From assembly GCA_903914175.1 (NCBI GenBank), contig CAIWNX010000002.1:1-49760 (forward strand): DNA of 49,760 bases. The letters run 5' to 3'. Source of the DNA: an uncultured beta proteobacterium (GTDB lineage: Bacteria; Pseudomonadota; Gammaproteobacteria; Burkholderiales; Burkholderiaceae_C). Position numbers and translations under genes: made by a program. The first letter of the stretch is position 1. Each line of letters opens with the position of its first letter. The notes below the pieces were generated by a model, which worked only from the letters and a program-made list of their open reading frames with translations, was not told the DNA's origin and made no database searches. Positions 4,550 through 43,033 of this stretch are shown piece after piece.

Positions 4550-7303
4550 TCAAACCGGCCCGAAAACGCCCCACACCAGTTTCTCGGGCTTGACGTATTT
4601 GCGCCAGACGCTGTTGATCTGCTCGGCCGTGAAGGATTCGATCAGGGCGTCGTTCTTTTCGCGCTCGTTTCGGGGCACCTGAAACTCCATCTCGTAGGCC
4701 ATAAAGCTCATGGCCCAACCATCGCCCGAGCGCGAGCGCAGGCGATCAGCCAGGTATTCGCGCTTGAAGCTGGCGACCTCGGCCGCCGTGAAGCCCTCGC
4801 GCAGCGAGCGTGCCAGCTCTTCCTGCAAGGCTTGTTCGGCCACGGCGACGTTCTTCGGTGCCACCTCGGCGCTCAGTGAAATACTGCCGCTGCGTTCATA
4901 CGAACTCGCACCAAAACCAGCGCCGGCGCTGTAGCTCAGGCCACCCGCCTCACGCAGGCGCAGCCACAGGCGCGAACCGGGACCGCCGCCAAAGATGCGC
5001 GTTGCCAGTTGCAGGGCAAAGTAGTCCTCGTCCATGCCCTGGGCCGCGACCGGCACTGACTGAACTCCTTTAATGCTGCTGTTGCTCTTGTCCGGGGTGT
5101 CAAACACCAGACGCGCTGGCGCGACCTCGAGCAGTGGCTCGGCAATCCGCCGCCAGGGCTCCGTGGCGCGCCAGTTGTCGAGCGCCAGCGTCACCGCCTG
5201 CTGGTATTCGCTGACGTCCACCGGACCGAGCAAACTGAGCTGCGCATGCTGCGCGCCGTAGAAGCGGCGGTAGAAGGCGTAGGCCTGGTCACGCGTGACG
5301 GCCTTGATCTCCTGCAATGACTCTTCGAGCGTGTGCTGGTAGCGCGGGTCGCCTTTGACATAGGGGTTGCCATAGCGGCTCCAGTCGTTCTCCGCCTGAG
5401 CCGACTTGTCTTTGATCTGGCCTTCGATGCCCTTGAGCATGGCGCTGCGCACCTCTTCAAACTCGGCCTGCGGAAAATTCGATTCCTTGAGCAAATGCAT
5501 GGCCAGCGCCAACGCTGGCTTGAAAGCATCTTTCTTCGCCCGCAGGGAAAGGCTGCCGCCGCTGTCGCCAAAACCCATGCTGAGTGCGGCGCCAAGCTTG
5601 TTCAGTTCATCCTGGATCTGTTGCCGCGACATCCTGGCCGTACCCCGCTGCAACATGGCGCCTGCCATCGTGGCCGGTGCGTCCTGGTTTTGCAAGGCCT
5701 CGACATTGCCAAATTTGAAGCGGATGTTCAGGTTGACCAGATCGCCGCGCACCGGCTTTCCCAGCATGGCAGTCTTGATGCCCCCGGGTGTCGTGGCGAA
5801 TACCACTTTGTCGTGCAGCGACGCAATGCCGAAGTCAAACGCAAGCGACTCCAGCCCCTTCTCACTGAGCGTGTAGCCCTGAAAATAGGCCGCGACTTCG
5901 GGCATGGCGCCAGCCGGTGCGCGCGCTGGCGTGGGCGTTGGAATCAAATGGCCCAGCGTGCGGTTGTCGCGCAGAAGGTAGCTGCGCGCGACGCGGTTCA
6001 CATCATCAAGCGTCACTGCCTTGACACGGTCGCGCGATACGAACACGGCGCGCCAGTCGCCATTCACCTCCGCGGCCATGGCACCATTGGCCACTGCCGC
6101 CGCGTTGGCAAAAGCCAGTTCCAGATTCTTGTTGATCTTCGCTTTGGCACGGTCGAATTCGTCCTGCCGGATCGGCTCCTGGTTCAGGTTTTCAACAACA
6201 CCGAGCAGCAGTTTCTGGCGCGCGGCGGCTTCATCGTCAGGCCCAAAAACAACGCCAAACATCAGCATGCCGGCCTCGCGCTGCGCGCCCGGTGCCGCAA
6301 AGACCGCTTGCGCCAATTTGCTCTCAACCAGCGCCTTGTGCAGGCGTCCCGAAGGCGCATCACCCAGCGCGGTGGTCAACACCTGCAAGGCCGCGCTGTC
6401 GGGGTGCAGCATCGGCGGGGCGTGATAGCCCAGCAGGATCAGTTGTGCCGTTGCGGGTCGGCGCACCACCACGCTGCGCTCGCCGTCCTGCGCCGGCTCC
6501 AGCGTGTAGGTCTGAGGGATCGGCGCATCGGGGCGTTGCAGCGCACCCAGGGCTTGCTGCACGCTGGCCAGCGTGCGCGCCGGATCGAACTTGCCGGCCA
6601 CGATCAGCACCGCGTTGTCGCTCCGGTAGTAGCGGCGATAGAAAGCCTGTAGCTTGGCAATATCGACGTTTTCGATATCCGACTTGGCGCCGATGGTTGA
6701 CTTGCCGTAACCATGCCAGAGGTAGGCGGTGTGCGCCATGCGCTGACTCAGCGCCGCAAACGGATTGTTCTCGCCCATTTCAAACTCGCTGCGCACCACG
6801 GTCATCTCGCTGTCGAGGTCCTTCTTCGCAATAAAGCTGTTGACCATGGCATCCGCCTGCCAGCCCAGGTACCAGTCCAGCGATTCCTGGCTCGATACAA
6901 AGGTAGCGAAATAGTTGGTGCGGTCGGCCGTGGTGGAGCCGTTGAAACTGAAGCCGCGCTTGCGGAATTCGGTCTTCGGATCGGGCGTCCCCGGTGTGCC
7001 CTTGAAGATCAGATGTTCCAGCAGGTGCGCCATGCCGGTCTCACCGTAGCCCTCATGGCGCGAACCCACCAGATAGGTCAAATTAACGGTCACGCGATCG
7101 TCTGCCAAGTCGGGCGCCAGCAGCACTTTGAGGCCGTTGGCGAGCCGGAACTCGGTGATGCCTTCGACCGTCTGGACCTTGCGCACGCCCGGCGGTGGCG
7201 CGGACACTTCCTGTGCCCACGCGCCAAGCGCAAGTTGCAGCAGCAACACGGCCGATACAAGGGCGCGCCCCAGCCCACTCCCAACACCTTCAACAAGTTT
7301 CAT
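4550..7303 (-). CDS. M16 family zinc metallopeptidase (pitrilysin-like), exported
   Basis: A 917-residue protein with an N-terminal signal peptide (hydrophobic residues ~14-30 ending GAWA). The inverted zinc motif HLLEH is at residues 93-97 and the third ligand is probably Glu173 in RSEFE, so the active site is intact. The protein has the four-domain layout of pitrilysin-type M16 peptidases in one chain, the second half being the inactive copy with the arginine/tyrosine-rich SYSAG region. It should degrade peptides in the periplasm. It lies 40 bp downstream of the C13 cysteine peptidase gene on the same strand, so both exported peptidases may be co-transcribed. Confidence 0.92.
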   Translation of the reverse strand: MKLVEGVGSGLGRALVSAVLLLQLALGAWAQEVSAPPPGVRKVQTVEGITEFRLANGLKVLLAPDLADDRVTVNLTYLVGSRHEGYGETGMAHLLEHLIFKGTPGTPDPKTEFRKRGFSFNGSTTADRTNYFATFVSSQESLDWYLGWQADAMVNSFIAKKDLDSEMTVVRSEFEMGENNPFAALSQRMAHTAYLWHGYGKSTIGAKSDIENVDIAKLQAFYRRYYRSDNAVLIVAGKFDPARTLASVQQALGALQRPDAPIPQTYTLEPAQDGERSVVVRRPATAQLILLGYHAPPMLHPDSAALQVLTTALGDAPSGRLHKALVESKLAQAVFAAPGAQREAGMLMFGVVFGPDDEAAARQKLLLGVVENLNQEPIRQDEFDRAKAKINKNLELAFANAAAVANGAMAAEVNGDWRAVFVSRDRVKAVTLDDVNRVARSYLLRDNRTLGHLIPTPTPARAPAGAMPEVAAYFQGYTLSEKGLESLAFDFGIASLHDKVVFATTPGGIKTAMLGKPVRGDLVNLNIRFKFGNVEALQNQDAPATMAGAMLQRGTARMSRQQIQDELNKLGAALSMGFGDSGGSLSLRAKKDAFKPALALAMHLLKESNFPQAEFEEVRSAMLKGIEGQIKDKSAQAENDWSRYGNPYVKGDPRYQHTLEESLQEIKAVTRDQAYAFYRRFYGAQHAQLSLLGPVDVSEYQQAVTLALDNWRATEPWRRIAEPLLEVAPARLVFDTPDKSNSSIKGVQSVPVAAQGMDEDYFALQLATRIFGGGPGSRLWLRLREAGGLSYSAGAGFGASSYERSGSISLSAEVAPKNVAVAEQALQEELARSLREGFTAAEVASFKREYLADRLRSRSGDGWAMSFMAYEMEFQVPRNEREKNDALIESFTAEQINSVWRKYVKPEKLVWGVFGPV

Positions 7304-38808: not shown

Positions 38809-40293
38809 ATGGATTCAAAAACAAACCTGAGCCCGCCCCGAATCCTGGTCGTCGACGACGAACCCGATTTGCGCACGCTCTACGAGTTGACGCTGCTGCG
38901 TGAAGGCTTCCGGGTTGAAACCGCTGAAAACCTGGCGCAGGCTTTCGAGTACCTGCGTGAAGAGCGATTCGATCTGCTCATCACCGATATGCGCCTGCCC
39001 GACGGCCTGGGCCTGGAACTGATACGCCACATCCGGTCCCAGAATCGCAAGGAGCGCTGCATCGTGATTACGGCCTACGGCTCAGCAGAAAACGCCGTCG
39101 AGTCACTCAAGGCCGGTGCTTTTGATTATTTGACCAAACCAGTTGATCTCAAGCAGTTCCGGATGCTCATTGCATCGGCAGTAACGGAGCCGGCGCCGTC
39201 GGGCAGGCGTACCACGGACACTGTTGCACCGTCAGGCGGCGCCAAAGCCGGTGCAGCACCGGCCCCCGCCTCGGCTGGTGAAGCAGCGCTGCAAAGGCTG
39301 GTCGGTAACTCCAATAGCATGCGCGCCGTCAAAGAACGTATTGTCAGGGTGGCGCGCAACATGGCACCCGTTTTGGTGATGGGCGAATCGGGTACCGGCA
39401 AAGAACTGGTGGCCAATGCCATTCACGCCAACAGCCACCGCTGCGGTGCTGCGCTGATTGCCGTCAATTGCAGCGCTATCCCGGAAAGCCTGCTCGAGAC
39501 GGAATTTTTTGGCGCCAAGAAGGGCTCCTATACCGGCGCAACACAAGACCGCGATGGTTTCTTTCAGGCGGCTCGTGGTGGCAGCTTGTTTCTTGATGAG
39601 ATTGGGGATTTGCCGCTGGCCATGCAAGCGAAGCTGCTGCGCGCCATTCAGGAACGCTGCATCCGGCCGATCGGTTCACCCCAGGAAGAGCCAGTCGATG
39701 TGCGGATCATCAGCGCAACGCACAAGGATCTGGCGGCCGAGGTTCATGCTGGGCGCTTTCGACAGGATCTGTATTACCGCTTGAATGTGATCCAGATTGT
39801 GATTCCGCCTTTGCGAGAGCGTCGTGATGACTTGCCAGCCCTGTGCACCGCCCTGCTGCAGCGGATTGCGGCCGAGTCTGGCATCGCGGTACCCGTGCTC
39901 TCGGACGCGGTACTGGCGCAACTTGCACTCGACCCCCTGCCCGGTAATGTGCGGGAACTCGAAAATCTTCTGCATCGTGCGGTTGCCCTGAGTGAAGAAG
40001 ATGATCTGCGAATTGAACCGCCAATACACCCCACGCCAAGCCAGCATGCAGCGTTAATGACTGCGGACACCAGGCTTGAGGATGACGACAGGGTTCCCAT
40101 TCCGACCGATTTGCAAGGCCATCTGGACGCGGCGGAACGTGAAATATTGATTCAGGCGCTGCGGGAAGCCGACTTTAACCGGACCGCTGCCGCTGCCCGG
40201 CTCGGTTTGAGTCTGAGACAAATGCGATACCGAATCGCCCGCCTGCATATCGACGTACAGGGTCAAGGCGACCCGTCGGATGGGCCCGTCTGA
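38809..40293 (+). CDS. PilR-type sigma-54-dependent response regulator
   Basis: A 494-residue NtrC-family activator. The receiver domain has Asp19/Asp60 and Lys110 (DMRLPDG; phosphoacceptor Asp60). The AAA+ domain has Walker A GESGTGKE at 192-199 and the sigma-54 contact loop GSYTGA at 239-244, a variant of GAFTGA also seen in PilR-type proteins. The C-terminal Fis-type helix-turn-helix has DFNRTAAAARLGLSLRQMRYRIARL. It acts by opening RpoN promoters, of which the only clear one in this window is at 28470. Coupled to the kinase gene; ampD follows at once. Confidence 0.9.
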   Translation: MDSKTNLSPPRILVVDDEPDLRTLYELTLLREGFRVETAENLAQAFEYLREERFDLLITDMRLPDGLGLELIRHIRSQNRKERCIVITAYGSAENAVESLKAGAFDYLTKPVDLKQFRMLIASAVTEPAPSGRRTTDTVAPSGGAKAGAAPAPASAGEAALQRLVGNSNSMRAVKERIVRVARNMAPVLVMGESGTGKELVANAIHANSHRCGAALIAVNCSAIPESLLETEFFGAKKGSYTGATQDRDGFFQAARGGSLFLDEIGDLPLAMQAKLLRAIQERCIRPIGSPQEEPVDVRIISATHKDLAAEVHAGRFRQDLYYRLNVIQIVIPPLRERRDDLPALCTALLQRIAAESGIAVPVLSDAVLAQLALDPLPGNVRELENLLHRAVALSEEDDLRIEPPIHPTPSQHAALMTADTRLEDDDRVPIPTDLQGHLDAAEREILIQALREADFNRTAAAARLGLSLRQMRYRIARLHIDVQGQGDPSDGPV

Positions 40294-40294
40294 C

Positions 40295-40891
40295 ATGCCG
40301 GCGCAATCGCAGCTTTGGCGCGATGGCTGGTACCAGTTCGCCAGTCGACAAGCCTCTCCGAATTTTGGCCCGCGGCCACTTGCCACCCAGCCTGATCTGA
40401 TCGTCCTGCATTGCATCAGCCTGCCGCCGGGCCGCTATGGCGGCGATGAGGTGCAACGCCTGTTTGCCAACCAGCTCGACTGGAACCAGCATCCCTATTT
40501 CAAGGGCATTGAAGGCCTGAGGGTGTCATCTCATTTTTACATCCGACGCCACGGTGAACTATTGCAGTTCGTCAGTGCCGATGAGCGGGCCTGGCATGCT
40601 GGCCTGTCGCACTATCGTGGACGCAGCGATTGCAACAATGACTCTGTCGGCATCGAACTCGAAGGTGTCGAAGGCGGCATCTTCGAGGACAGTCAATACG
40701 AGTCACTGGCCGGTTTGTGCGCTGGACTGTTGGAACATTATCCGATCACCGATATCGCCGGACACGAGCATGTCGCTGCGGGACGAAAGACCGATCCGGG
40801 TCCCGGCTTTGAATGGCGTCGTCTGCAGCAGATGCTGGGATTGCCGTCAACATATTTTCCTCCCGGAAGTTTGCCAAGCGAAACACGCTGA
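40295..40891 (+). CDS. ampD: 1,6-anhydro-N-acetylmuramyl-L-alanine amidase AmpD
   Basis: A 198-residue cytoplasmic zinc amidase. ATG 40295 lies one base after the pilR-like stop; ATG 40280 in the same frame would overlap that gene and cannot be excluded. Zinc ligands fit IVLHCISLPPG and GHEHVAAGRKTDPGPGFEW, and the family segment GLSHYRGRSDCNNDSVGIELEG is present. It cleaves anhydro-muropeptides during wall recycling. In related genomes nrdA and nrdB commonly follow; here they do not. Confidence 0.93.
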   Translation: MPAQSQLWRDGWYQFASRQASPNFGPRPLATQPDLIVLHCISLPPGRYGGDEVQRLFANQLDWNQHPYFKGIEGLRVSSHFYIRRHGELLQFVSADERAWHAGLSHYRGRSDCNNDSVGIELEGVEGGIFEDSQYESLAGLCAGLLEHYPITDIAGHEHVAAGRKTDPGPGFEWRRLQQMLGLPSTYFPPGSLPSETR

Positions 40892-40945
40892 ACGCCTGCG
40901 TCACGGCGGGTCAAAAAATTCAGGAAATCTCGACTTGACTGCGAC

Positions 40946-40993
40946 ACGCTACCGGTAGTGGCTTGCAATCAGTCCAGACACCATATATAGTGT
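40946..40993 (+). promoter_or_regulatory. Paired NrdR boxes over a sigma-70 promoter
   Basis: ACACCATATATAGTGT (40978-40993) matches the NrdR box consensus acaCwAtATaTwGtgt at 15 of 16 positions. A weaker second box, ACGCTACCGGTAGTGG (40946-40961), is centred 32 bp upstream, the usual spacing for paired NrdR boxes. Between them TTGCAA (40963-40968) and TATAGT (40986-40991), 17 bp apart, make a good sigma-70 promoter with the -10 inside the strong box. NrdR represses ribonucleotide reductase operons, but no such gene follows intact. Confidence 0.85.
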
Positions 40994-41047
40994 CTCCTGC
41001 TCACTAGCCCAAAACCGGATTGACACGCCGCTACCGACAGAATTTGA

Positions 41048-41160
41048 ATGCAAACCACACTGGTTCCGATCACCATCCTTCAACTTGCGAGTCACGCCAG
41101 TGAAGTTTGATACCGACTTTCCAATGCCCCTGTGCGATGTTGCTGCACAACACTTGGCAG
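41048..41160 (+). pseudogene. nrdA: Putative remnant of nrdA (ribonucleotide reductase alpha subunit)
   Basis: ATG 41048 starts MQTTLVP, like the N-terminus of betaproteobacterial NrdA (commonly MQT...), but the frame stops at TGA after 20 codons. Shortly after, another frame (from about 41100) reads VKFDTDFPMPLCDVAAQ, which loosely resembles the NrdA C-terminus of the type VKFCAIDDPTCEACQ. Position after an NrdR promoter and before an nrdB-like start supports the assignment; the protein similarity by itself is weak. Nearly all of the ~2.9-kb gene would be deleted. Confidence 0.5.
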
Positions 41161-41237
41161 CCCATTCGAGCCGTGATGTGAAGGAATACTTTTCATTTCA
41201 TTTCACCTCTCGGATAATCCGCTGACTGGAACTATTT

Positions 41238-41460
41238 ATGTTGAACTGGGACGAAGATATCAAGCCCACCTCGCCATCACGTATTGCACGCGACTCATCC
41301 GCGAGTCGTGCTGCGGCATCCCTCGCAACCGTTACCGGCACCGCGCATCATGTTGGCGCGACTTCCCGGGATTGATGATTCAAATGCTGACAAGAATTTC
41401 ACAAGTGGCCAATTACCCTCAAAGGGCATGGGCCACTTGTGCACCCGAGTTCATGGTGCT
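41238..41460 (+). pseudogene. nrdB: Eroded 5' end of nrdB (ribonucleotide reductase beta subunit)
   Basis: ATG 41238 begins MLNWDEDIKPTSPSRIARD, strongly like Burkholderiales NrdB starts (MLxWDEE...). The frame ends at TGA 41373-41375 after 45 codons. In the next frame (41383-41412) SNADKNFTSGQ keeps the DKxxxxGQ spacing of the NrdB segment NASDKRVINGQ. In the third frame (~41411-41443) NYPQRAWATCA recalls KYKWAWEKYLATCANHW. The three fragments are in the order expected for NrdB, which suggests two frameshifts and a large 3' deletion. None of the di-iron ligand region remains. Confidence 0.65.
41401..41440. repeat. Perfect inverted repeat in the nrdB remnant
   Basis: ACAAGTGGCC (41401-41410) and GGCCACTTGT (41431-41440) pair over 10 bp, with an inner CCCT/AGGG pair in the 20-base loop. 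No T-tract follows. It may be a deletion scar or a transcript structure between the NrdR promoter and the histone-like gene. Confidence 0.6.
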
Positions 41461-41543
41461 GGGCTTAAGCCCAACATCATGGATCGCTTCATGCTCTCCA
41501 ACTCGCATGAAGTGCTCTTTGTAAATTGATCAAGGAGAAATAA

Positions 41544-42038
41544 ATGGCAACTGCAAAAAAACCGGCCGCAAAAAAGGCCGCTCCCGCGAAGAAAGCGGCT
41601 CCCGCAAAGAAAGTAGCAGCTAAGAAAGCTGCGCCGGCAAAGAAAGCGGCACCAGCGAAAAAAGTAGCGGCAAAGAAAGTCGCTGCCAAGAAGCCGGCCG
41701 CCAAGAAAGCGGCACCAGCGAAAAAAGTAGCGGCAAAGAAAGTCGCTGCCAAGAAGGCTGCACCCGCTAAGAAAGCGGCAGCCAAGAAGGCCGCTCCGGC
41801 CAAGAAGGTAGCAGCCAAAAAGGTTGCCGCCAAAAAGCCAGCAGCCAAGAAAGCCGCTGTAGCGAAAAAGCCGGCCGCCAAGAAGCCAGCAGCCAAGAAA
41901 GCAGCCAAGAAGCCGGCCGCGAAGAAAGCCGCGAAAGCACCCGCTGCCAAGGCAGCGCCTGCTCCGGCTGCCCCTGCTGCTCAGACCACTTTGAGCCCGC
42001 AGGCCGCATGGCCCTTTCCGACTGCCGCCAAGCCCTGA
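41544..42038 (+). CDS. Histone H1-like / AlgP-like lysine-alanine-rich DNA-binding protein
   Basis: A 164-residue protein built almost wholly of AAKK and PAKK repeats (residues ~5-135), then an Ala/Pro-rich stretch and a short unique tail LSPQAAWPFPTAAKP. Such proteins resemble eukaryotic H1 tails and bind DNA non-specifically; AlgP of Pseudomonas is the known relative. The repeat number is expected to vary between strains. Strong ribosome binding site AAGGAGA. It follows the eroded nrdAB locus; its own promoter was not found, so transcription may come from the NrdR promoter. Confidence 0.88.
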   Translation: MATAKKPAAKKAAPAKKAAPAKKVAAKKAAPAKKAAPAKKVAAKKVAAKKPAAKKAAPAKKVAAKKVAAKKAAPAKKAAAKKAAPAKKVAAKKVAAKKPAAKKAAVAKKPAAKKPAAKKAAKKPAAKKAAKAPAAKAAPAPAAPAAQTTLSPQAAWPFPTAAKP

Positions 42039-42061
42039 ACCCCTGACAAGGTTCGGCTACA

Positions 42062-42093
42062 AGCCCGGTGCCTGACGGCATCGGGCTTTTTTT
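42062..42093 (+). terminator. Intrinsic terminator after the histone-like gene
   Basis: AGCCCGGTGCC (42062-42072), loop TGAC, GGCATCGGGCT (42077-42087), one G-U pair, followed by a run of seven T to 42093. Confidence 0.92.
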
Positions 42094-42154
42094 GTGGTGC
42101 CAACAGTGGCATTCGTCAATTGGAGATTTTTGAAGTCGTTGCGCTATCGCAATT

Positions 42155-43033
42155 TCAAGGATAGTAGGCAAGCAAGCGGTAACCGACAATGCGCTCGGCC
42201 AGCCCTGCGGTCTTTACCACCATGGTGAGTGATGTCGTCCACTCCGCAGCAGCTGCCAGGCTTTCTGTCTGGCTGGCAAGCTCTGCCGCCAGGAAGACGC
42301 GACGCAGCACCGGCTGATCGAGCGAATCAGTCAGGGTCAGTTCAAGAGCGGGGACGGCCAACGCCGTGGTCGCTGTGTTCTTGAGCGTGAAATTCAGGCG
42401 ATAGGTATCAGGCTTGATCTTGCTGAATGATGCGCCATCAATCACGACCGCATCTTTTTGCCGTAAGGGTGACAACGCACAATTGAGCGGCTGGCAAAGC
42501 GCCAGAAACAAGTTCTTCAGGCCTGGCTGCAGCACCACAATCCGGTCGCGCTCACGCAACACAACTTGCCCAGCAAGCGCGATCAGCAAGAGCAAGCAAA
42601 GCGCCATCCATCCGATGCGACTCAATGATTTACGCCTCGCGCTGGCTTGATCTACTGCAGATAAAAAAGATGGCGGGTGTAATTCTGCAATCGATTGACG
42701 ATCCGGGTCTGCCAGATCGTTGGGGTCAATTTCAAGCGGCGTGCCCGCGTCCACTGGCGGAACCAATTGGGATTCATTGCGCTGATCGGCAGTTTCGGCT
42801 TCGCAGTCAACCTCATCTACACCTGCGGCGGTTGCCTCGGGCAAAGTCGGCTCCGGAGTAGGCGAAATTTCTTGCAGGGGTTCAACAGACGAAGCAGATG
42901 GCAGTAGTTGATTCGAGGCATCGAATACTTCCCCGCACTGTCCGCAGCGAACCCATCCTTCGGAAATCCTGAGTTGATCGGCCACCACCTTGAACAGGGT
43001 CTGGCATGCCGGGCATCGTGTAATCAGGCTCAT
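42155..43033 (-). CDS. Zinc-ribbon domain protein with DUF3426
   Basis: A 292-residue protein from ATG 43033. The N-terminal MJ0042-type zinc finger has CPAC (Cys7, Cys10) and CGQC (Cys30, Cys33) and a conserved WVRCGQCGEVFDA. An acidic, low-complexity stretch runs to ~residue 125, then a transmembrane helix at ~138-158, then the DUF3426 domain with a beta-rich LNFTLKNTATTALAVPALELTLTD pattern. The cytoplasmic finger and external domain suggest a membrane-bound regulator or assembly factor; function unknown. Follows prmA, 34 bp away. Confidence 0.85.
   Translation of the reverse strand: MSLITRCPACQTLFKVVADQLRISEGWVRCGQCGEVFDASNQLLPSASSVEPLQEISPTPEPTLPEATAAGVDEVDCEAETADQRNESQLVPPVDAGTPLEIDPNDLADPDRQSIAELHPPSFLSAVDQASARRKSLSRIGWMALCLLLLIALAGQVVLRERDRIVVLQPGLKNLFLALCQPLNCALSPLRQKDAVVIDGASFSKIKPDTYRLNFTLKNTATTALAVPALELTLTDSLDQPVLRRVFLAAELASQTESLAAAAEWTTSLTMVVKTAGLAERIVGYRLLAYYP

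Follow-up and report, generated by a model that had tools for sequence, protein, structure and literature searches.

An nrdAB deletion scar between ampD and a histone H1-like gene

The window analysed here is the whole stretch of 49,760 nucleotides from contig CAIWNX010000002.1 of an uncultured beta proteobacterium, a relative of Rhodoferax. Its forward strand carries ampD (40280–40891; NCBIfam NF008758, 250 bits against a cut-off of 143) and a gene for a histone H1-like protein with AAKK repeats (41544–42038; Pfam HC2). The latter scored 92 bits, above the cut-off of 80, for NF038053, the Hc2-like histone H1-like protein of Burkholderiales. Between the ampD stop (40891) and the histone-like ATG (41544) lie 652 bp without an intact gene, and it was in this gap that a sequence-only reading had placed a deletion of nrdA and nrdB, which encode class Ia ribonucleotide reductase (RNR). 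These bacteria commonly rely on class Ia as their aerobic form of RNR, an essential enzyme. Our analysis supports the deletion, and further indicates that the control segments of the lost operon have been conserved ahead of the histone H1-like gene.

The two flanking genes anchor the slot on its left and right, and ampD holds an equal position in relatives. Of 80 named loci retrieved with ampD as the query, the best 80 of 557, AmpD, NrdA, NrdB and then the histone tail followed one another in 54, bearing out the earlier statement that this slot normally holds nrdAB. NrdA was seen before the contig end in a further 16, 11 of them with NrdB too, and the contig ended soon after ampD in four. The remaining six spanned the slot without NrdA, one of which (L112) keeps a bare NrdB remnant. 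These six loci appear to come from the window's own genus and include Rhodoferax sp. U2-2l (L138, G084), which is not marked as a metagenome-assembled genome.

Aligned with the intact G031 locus, which is from the same genus, the gap showed three colinear blocks, corresponding to the nrdA promoter (40943–41000), the nrdA end, nrdA–nrdB spacer and nrdB start (41081–41299), and the nrdB end with the histone leader (41355–41570). The nrdA remnant (41048–41110, + strand) comprises the start codon reported previously (ATG, MQTTLVP, 41048) and some 12 codons joined to the end of nrdA. The resulting 20-codon frame is equally long in all five genomes of the clade that contains the window, designated clade I (G000, the source genome, with G034, G029, G027 and G099; Shimodaira–Hasegawa-like approximate likelihood ratio test support 100). 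The nrdA C-terminal codons, CESRQ and stop (41086–41103, +; CESCQ and stop in intact relatives), survive in another frame than the 41048 remnant and add to the previously listed fragments. The nrdB remnant (41238–41375, +) begins at the second reported start codon (ATG, MLNWDEDIKP) and comprises about 40 N-terminal codons followed by the last codons and old stop of nrdB (41373–41375), this tail being aligned by eye. Its 45-codon frame matched NrdB residues 1–46 of a same-genus genome (tblastn, 52 % identity, E 5.5e-12). Of the three NrdB-like fragments in three frames proposed earlier, only this one, the NrdB N-terminus running to the old stop, was recovered. A relaxed tblastn search with full-length NrdB gave it as the single credible match, other plus-strand matches being at chance level and the second-best (1e-5 with composition correction off) lying on the opposite strand. 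The frame at 41284–41529 was likewise rejected as an NrdB piece, as it runs across the nrdB remnant in a different frame before entering the histone leader. With remnants of both genes present in order at the syntenic site, the gap is, as judged from its sequence, a real nrdAB deletion scar.

A putative NrdR operator, two promoter-like sites and a structured leader remain in the scar

The NrdR-type promoter noted previously was confirmed and comprises two near-consensus NrdR boxes at a promoter-like site, box 1 (ACGCTACCGGTAGTGG, 40946–40961, +) and box 2 (ACACCATATATAGTGT, 40978–40993, +; no mismatches to the NrdR box), separated by a 16 bp linker. None of 500 shuffles of the gap reached its tandem box score. 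Two studies describe NrdR operators as box pairs with linkers of mostly 15–16 bp (PMC12051234; PMC9110341). The putative operator in the gap resembles those in its two boxes, 16 bp linker and promoter overlap, but differs from them in preceding no RNR gene, the next complete gene being the histone H1-like gene. The former nrdA promoter, P1 (TTGCAA-17-TATAGT, 40963–40991, +), sits inside the operator, whilst the former nrdB promoter, P2 (TTTTCA-17-GATAAT, 41190–41218, +), sits in the kept nrdA–nrdB spacer. Models built on intact nrdA and nrdB upstream regions matched the two promoter regions at 4e-13 and 6.6e-28, respectively (nhmmer). A pattern scan of both strands of 40850–42150 returned only these two promoter-like sites, where 0.5 were expected, and no plus-strand terminator-like site between P1 and the histone gene. 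A transcript from either promoter should thus reach the histone gene, after which a terminator-like site was found in the same scan (42061–42088, +).

The histone gene is preceded by a predicted structured leader (41435–41543, +; fold z = -4.9) of three hairpins, the third of which pairs with the ribosome binding site. Across 62 sequences of the genus, 93.2 % of pair cells were standard and 11 pairs had changed on both sides, against 4.8 in shuffles, and sliding the pairing partners reduced pairing to 37–48 %. Covariation beyond the shuffled and shifted controls was seen for helices 1 and 2, whilst helix 3, in which CUCUUUG pairs with CAAGGAG of the ribosome site, displayed no double changes. 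The leader model was also searched against the 50 of the 80 named loci that have nrdB and the histone tail and lay outside the seed. All 50 matched at 44.8 bits or above (e.g. L135:8973-9091), each located after the NrdB match and ahead of the histone tail, and 48 ending on a start codon; the 33 other matches of this search scored at most 24.9 bits and were on the opposite strand. These loci belong mostly to Polaromonas, Variovorax, Ramlibacter, Limnohabitans, Pseudorhodoferax and other genera, with a few that carry only family- or order-level names and may be from the window's genus. On this comparative evidence the leader is a structured RNA kept across genera of the Comamonadaceae, and within 40800–42200 no family in Rfam scored at or above its gathering cut-off.

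NrdJ is the only ribonucleotide reductase found in the source genome

The deletion implied that the cell must have another RNR, and a search of the source genome (a draft of 322 contigs and 4.05 Mb, 96.9 % complete with 5.3 % contamination) supplied a candidate. Its sole RNR large subunit is NrdJ (965 aa, G000:C257), which scored 599 bits against the TIGR02504 cut-off of 400 and has no partner NrdB, as befits a class II enzyme. Searches of this draft gave no match to NrdB, whilst the identical search was positive in 7/14 control genomes, and found neither a relocated native nrdAB nor NrdD, the class III backup. NrdJ is very probably native, because across 871 aligned residues it is 98 % identical to the NrdJ of the sister genome, and it is 95–96 % identical to those of the other three clade I members. 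As far as the draft genome allows, loss of nrdAB is therefore established by gene content.

Such a fragmented draft does leave room for the idea that nrdAB exists and was collapsed in assembly or binned away. The scar, though, lies inside the 49.8 kb window of a single contig, a homologous scar recurs in other genomes, and Rhodoferax sp. U2-2l also has an nrdAB-less slot. We consider an assembly artefact highly improbable.

The genome encodes NrdR (G000:C144), and a tandem NrdR-like pair lies upstream of its nrdJ (10 of 32 positions mismatched; the best of 500 shuffles had 12). Such a pair, with at most 10 mismatches, was present at 13 of 17 nrdJ loci examined, the shuffle control being that of the source genome only; G083, G071 and G035 lacked it, and the G034 locus ends at a contig end. 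A PduO-type adenosyltransferase gene was also present. CobS, which performs the last step of cobalamin assembly, was not found in any of the five clade I genomes, the source genome among them, or in the eight clade II genomes, and in the 11 of these 13 that have any RNR, the only one seen was an NrdJ-like subunit. DNA synthesis in the source genome and in clades I and II may hence depend on imported cobalamin (B12). Among good genomes of the genus (at least 90 % complete and at most 5 % contaminated), CobS was missing from 11/18 without NrdB and 4/32 with NrdB (Fisher p 0.0008, uncorrected for kinship and with three genomes carrying a foreign class I RNR counted as NrdB-bearing).

Loss of nrdAB is recurrent within the genus

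The sequence-only reading had regarded the loss as unusual for a Comamonadaceae-like bacterium; the loss is real by the evidence above, yet far from unique. No NrdB match was obtained in 30/89 genomes of the genus, the source genome included, or in 18 of the 50 good genomes, to which the source genome does not belong. Among the 30 NrdB-less genomes, only G017, G102 and G104 showed no large subunit; in the other 27 its NrdJ identity rests on the curated family in the source genome, on 83–98 % identity in the others fetched and on a lower Pfam score in the rest. Three further genomes (G004, G061 and G098) carried only a divergent NrdB (~216 bits) elsewhere and a native slot without nrdAB, and for this reason class I has probably been regained in them. 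The divergent class I RNR occupies new sites (G004:C2:75235-77960, G061:C2:2224282-2229958 and G098:C6:9919-12680), and in G061 nrdD lies between the two subunits.

We mapped loss onto an 80-row tree of four flanking proteins in which 30 rows were labelled as lost (27 NrdB-less genomes and the three with foreign class I). The support tree was computed without Hylemonella, which had formed a long misplaced FastTree branch, and without G063, G070, G107 and Ramlibacter terrae. The loss label required 10 changes, nine of them forced by starred branches, although the label of G104 (75 % complete, slot missing) could reflect missing data. By this reconstruction nrdAB loss is recurrent in the genus, having occurred about ten times.

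The slot was covered in 22 loss loci, of which 19 come from the 30 NrdB-less genomes and three from those carrying foreign class I. In the other NrdB-less genomes, the slot was rearranged or broken off (G012, G063, G103, G105), the contig ended near it (G001, G026, G073, G104), the slot was present in part (G016) or no PrmA match was found (G067, G086). Models built from intact genomes only matched P2 in 21/22 of these loci, the leader in 22/22 and P1 in 9/22; P1, P2 and the leader were all matched in G016, which is cut by contig ends. At one locus (L254, G011, 5934–6782), larger pieces of NrdA and NrdB remain and no AmpD match was found. Judged by these pieces, it is a less eroded stage of a like loss.

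Regulatory segments of the scar are conserved in clade I

The deletion junctions are common to all five clade I genomes, with the nrdA junction aligned without gaps, which argues against assembly error and for one old event. Within the clade I alignment, 40/51 columns were invariant in the NrdR operator with P1 (box 1 included), 40/48 from P2 to the ATG (41193–41240) and 95/109 in the histone leader. These three regulatory segments are therefore 78–87 % invariant, compared with 18 % (98/544) of fourfold sites from the response regulator, AmpD, PrmA and AccC. Binomial tails for the three were at most 1e-20 against 18 % and at most 3e-7 against a harsher 43 %, for columns that are partly dependent and segments drawn after viewing the alignment. 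Two other parts of the scar are as diverged as fourfold sites (40889–40938, 8/55 invariant; 41291–41372, 17/91). Further segments had 18/52, 11/24 and 24/63 invariant columns, and a short spacer adjoining P2 had 14/16.

One account of this pattern is plain decay: each lineage would have deleted nrdAB recently and on its own, and the promoters would appear conserved only for want of time to decay. The many losses in the genus are in keeping with it, and deletion evidently proceeded separately in clade II, where the scars differ in length and G011 holds its larger gene pieces. For clade I plain decay is disfavoured, given the shared gap-free junction and the divergence of parts of the scar to the level of fourfold sites when the regulatory parts have not diverged. 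Overall we regard it as quite unlikely. The strong conservation of the regulatory segments indicates that the scar is not merely decaying, and selection has probably kept the operator-promoter, nrdB promoter and leader in clade I, an interpretation that is well supported by the alignment.

A second account is that the kept segments are there for something else than the histone gene, for instance a small RNA or the 20-codon peptide expressed from P1. The 20-codon frame, of equal length throughout clade I, is indeed more invariant than fourfold sites (27/63). Against this, the peptide varies and was not seen in four aligned clade II scars, no Rfam family was matched, and it is P2 and the leader, nearest the histone gene, that are most widely kept. 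This too appears unlikely.

The retained segments may serve the histone H1-like gene

The simplest reading is that the kept pieces serve the histone gene. We propose that ampD, nrdA, nrdB and the histone gene formed one unit in an ancestor, from which the nrdA and nrdB bodies were deleted; their start and stop codons stayed behind, as did the three surrounding non-coding regions. Deoxynucleotides would now be made only via NrdJ, the adenosylcobalamin-dependent class II enzyme encoded elsewhere, as the gene content of the draft suggests. P1, P2 and the leader, whose conservation points to selection, would drive transcription and translation of the histone H1-like gene, which once followed nrdB, and NrdR would couple this nucleoid protein to the ATP/dATP state. 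We assign a probability of roughly 0.8 to the reading that the nrdAB bodies were deleted, that deoxynucleotide synthesis is by NrdJ only and that P1, P2 and the leader are kept by selection to express the histone gene.

Several observations weigh against it. The source genome is a draft in 322 contigs with 5.3 % contamination. The NrdB-less genomes G017, G102 and G104, which are 86, 91 and 75 % complete, show no large subunit, probably through incompleteness. P1 was unmatched in all eight clade III loci and matched in only nine of the 22 loss loci, so the NrdR operator is dispensable elsewhere in the genus. G101 retains the leader only, indicating that P1 and P2 can both be lost with the histone gene kept. 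Finally, the 20-codon frame, the NrdB N-terminal remnant (29/50) and a spacer (21/42) also exceed fourfold sites, which may be an imperfect neutral yardstick.

More tentatively, and with rather less than even confidence, we suggest that repeated gene deletion has turned the shell of the nrdAB operon into a dedicated control region of the histone H1-like gene. NrdR, a repressor that senses dNTPs (at P1, in clades I and II), and the Shine–Dalgarno-masking leader would then set the dose of a nucleoid protein where the only RNR needs scavenged B12. Were this true, NrdR control would tie deoxynucleotide supply to chromosome packing, and the orphan operator offers a testable case of NrdR controlling something beyond RNR genes.

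Loss and turnover of RNR classes in bacteria have been described (Lundin et al. 2010, PMC3019208). Loss of an RNR class as such is of a known and expected kind, and the present case, with class Ia lost and class II remaining, is similar. What sets it apart is that the loss can be traced to a scar, that it recurs in a single genus and that the control region of the lost operon stayed conserved. What is new is the leader RNA and an orphan NrdR operator that has been conserved. Literature searches, which left most subscription journals outside, returned nothing on a histone H1-like gene with the nrdAB operon or with ribonucleotide reductase in Bordetella, and nothing that combines nrdJ, ribonucleotide reductase and Rhodoferax; a looser search on histone H1-like proteins gave no title on an nrd operon. 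A genus that has dropped class Ia about ten times offers a natural set of cases in which to ask why a class II enzyme is enough.

No tRNA was found in the window. An inverted repeat (TGTTG-CTGCA-CAACA, 41138–41152) is present upstream of P2, with few changes in the aligned clade I and II scars and in the intact loci of G031 and G014, and is possibly a site for some regulator.
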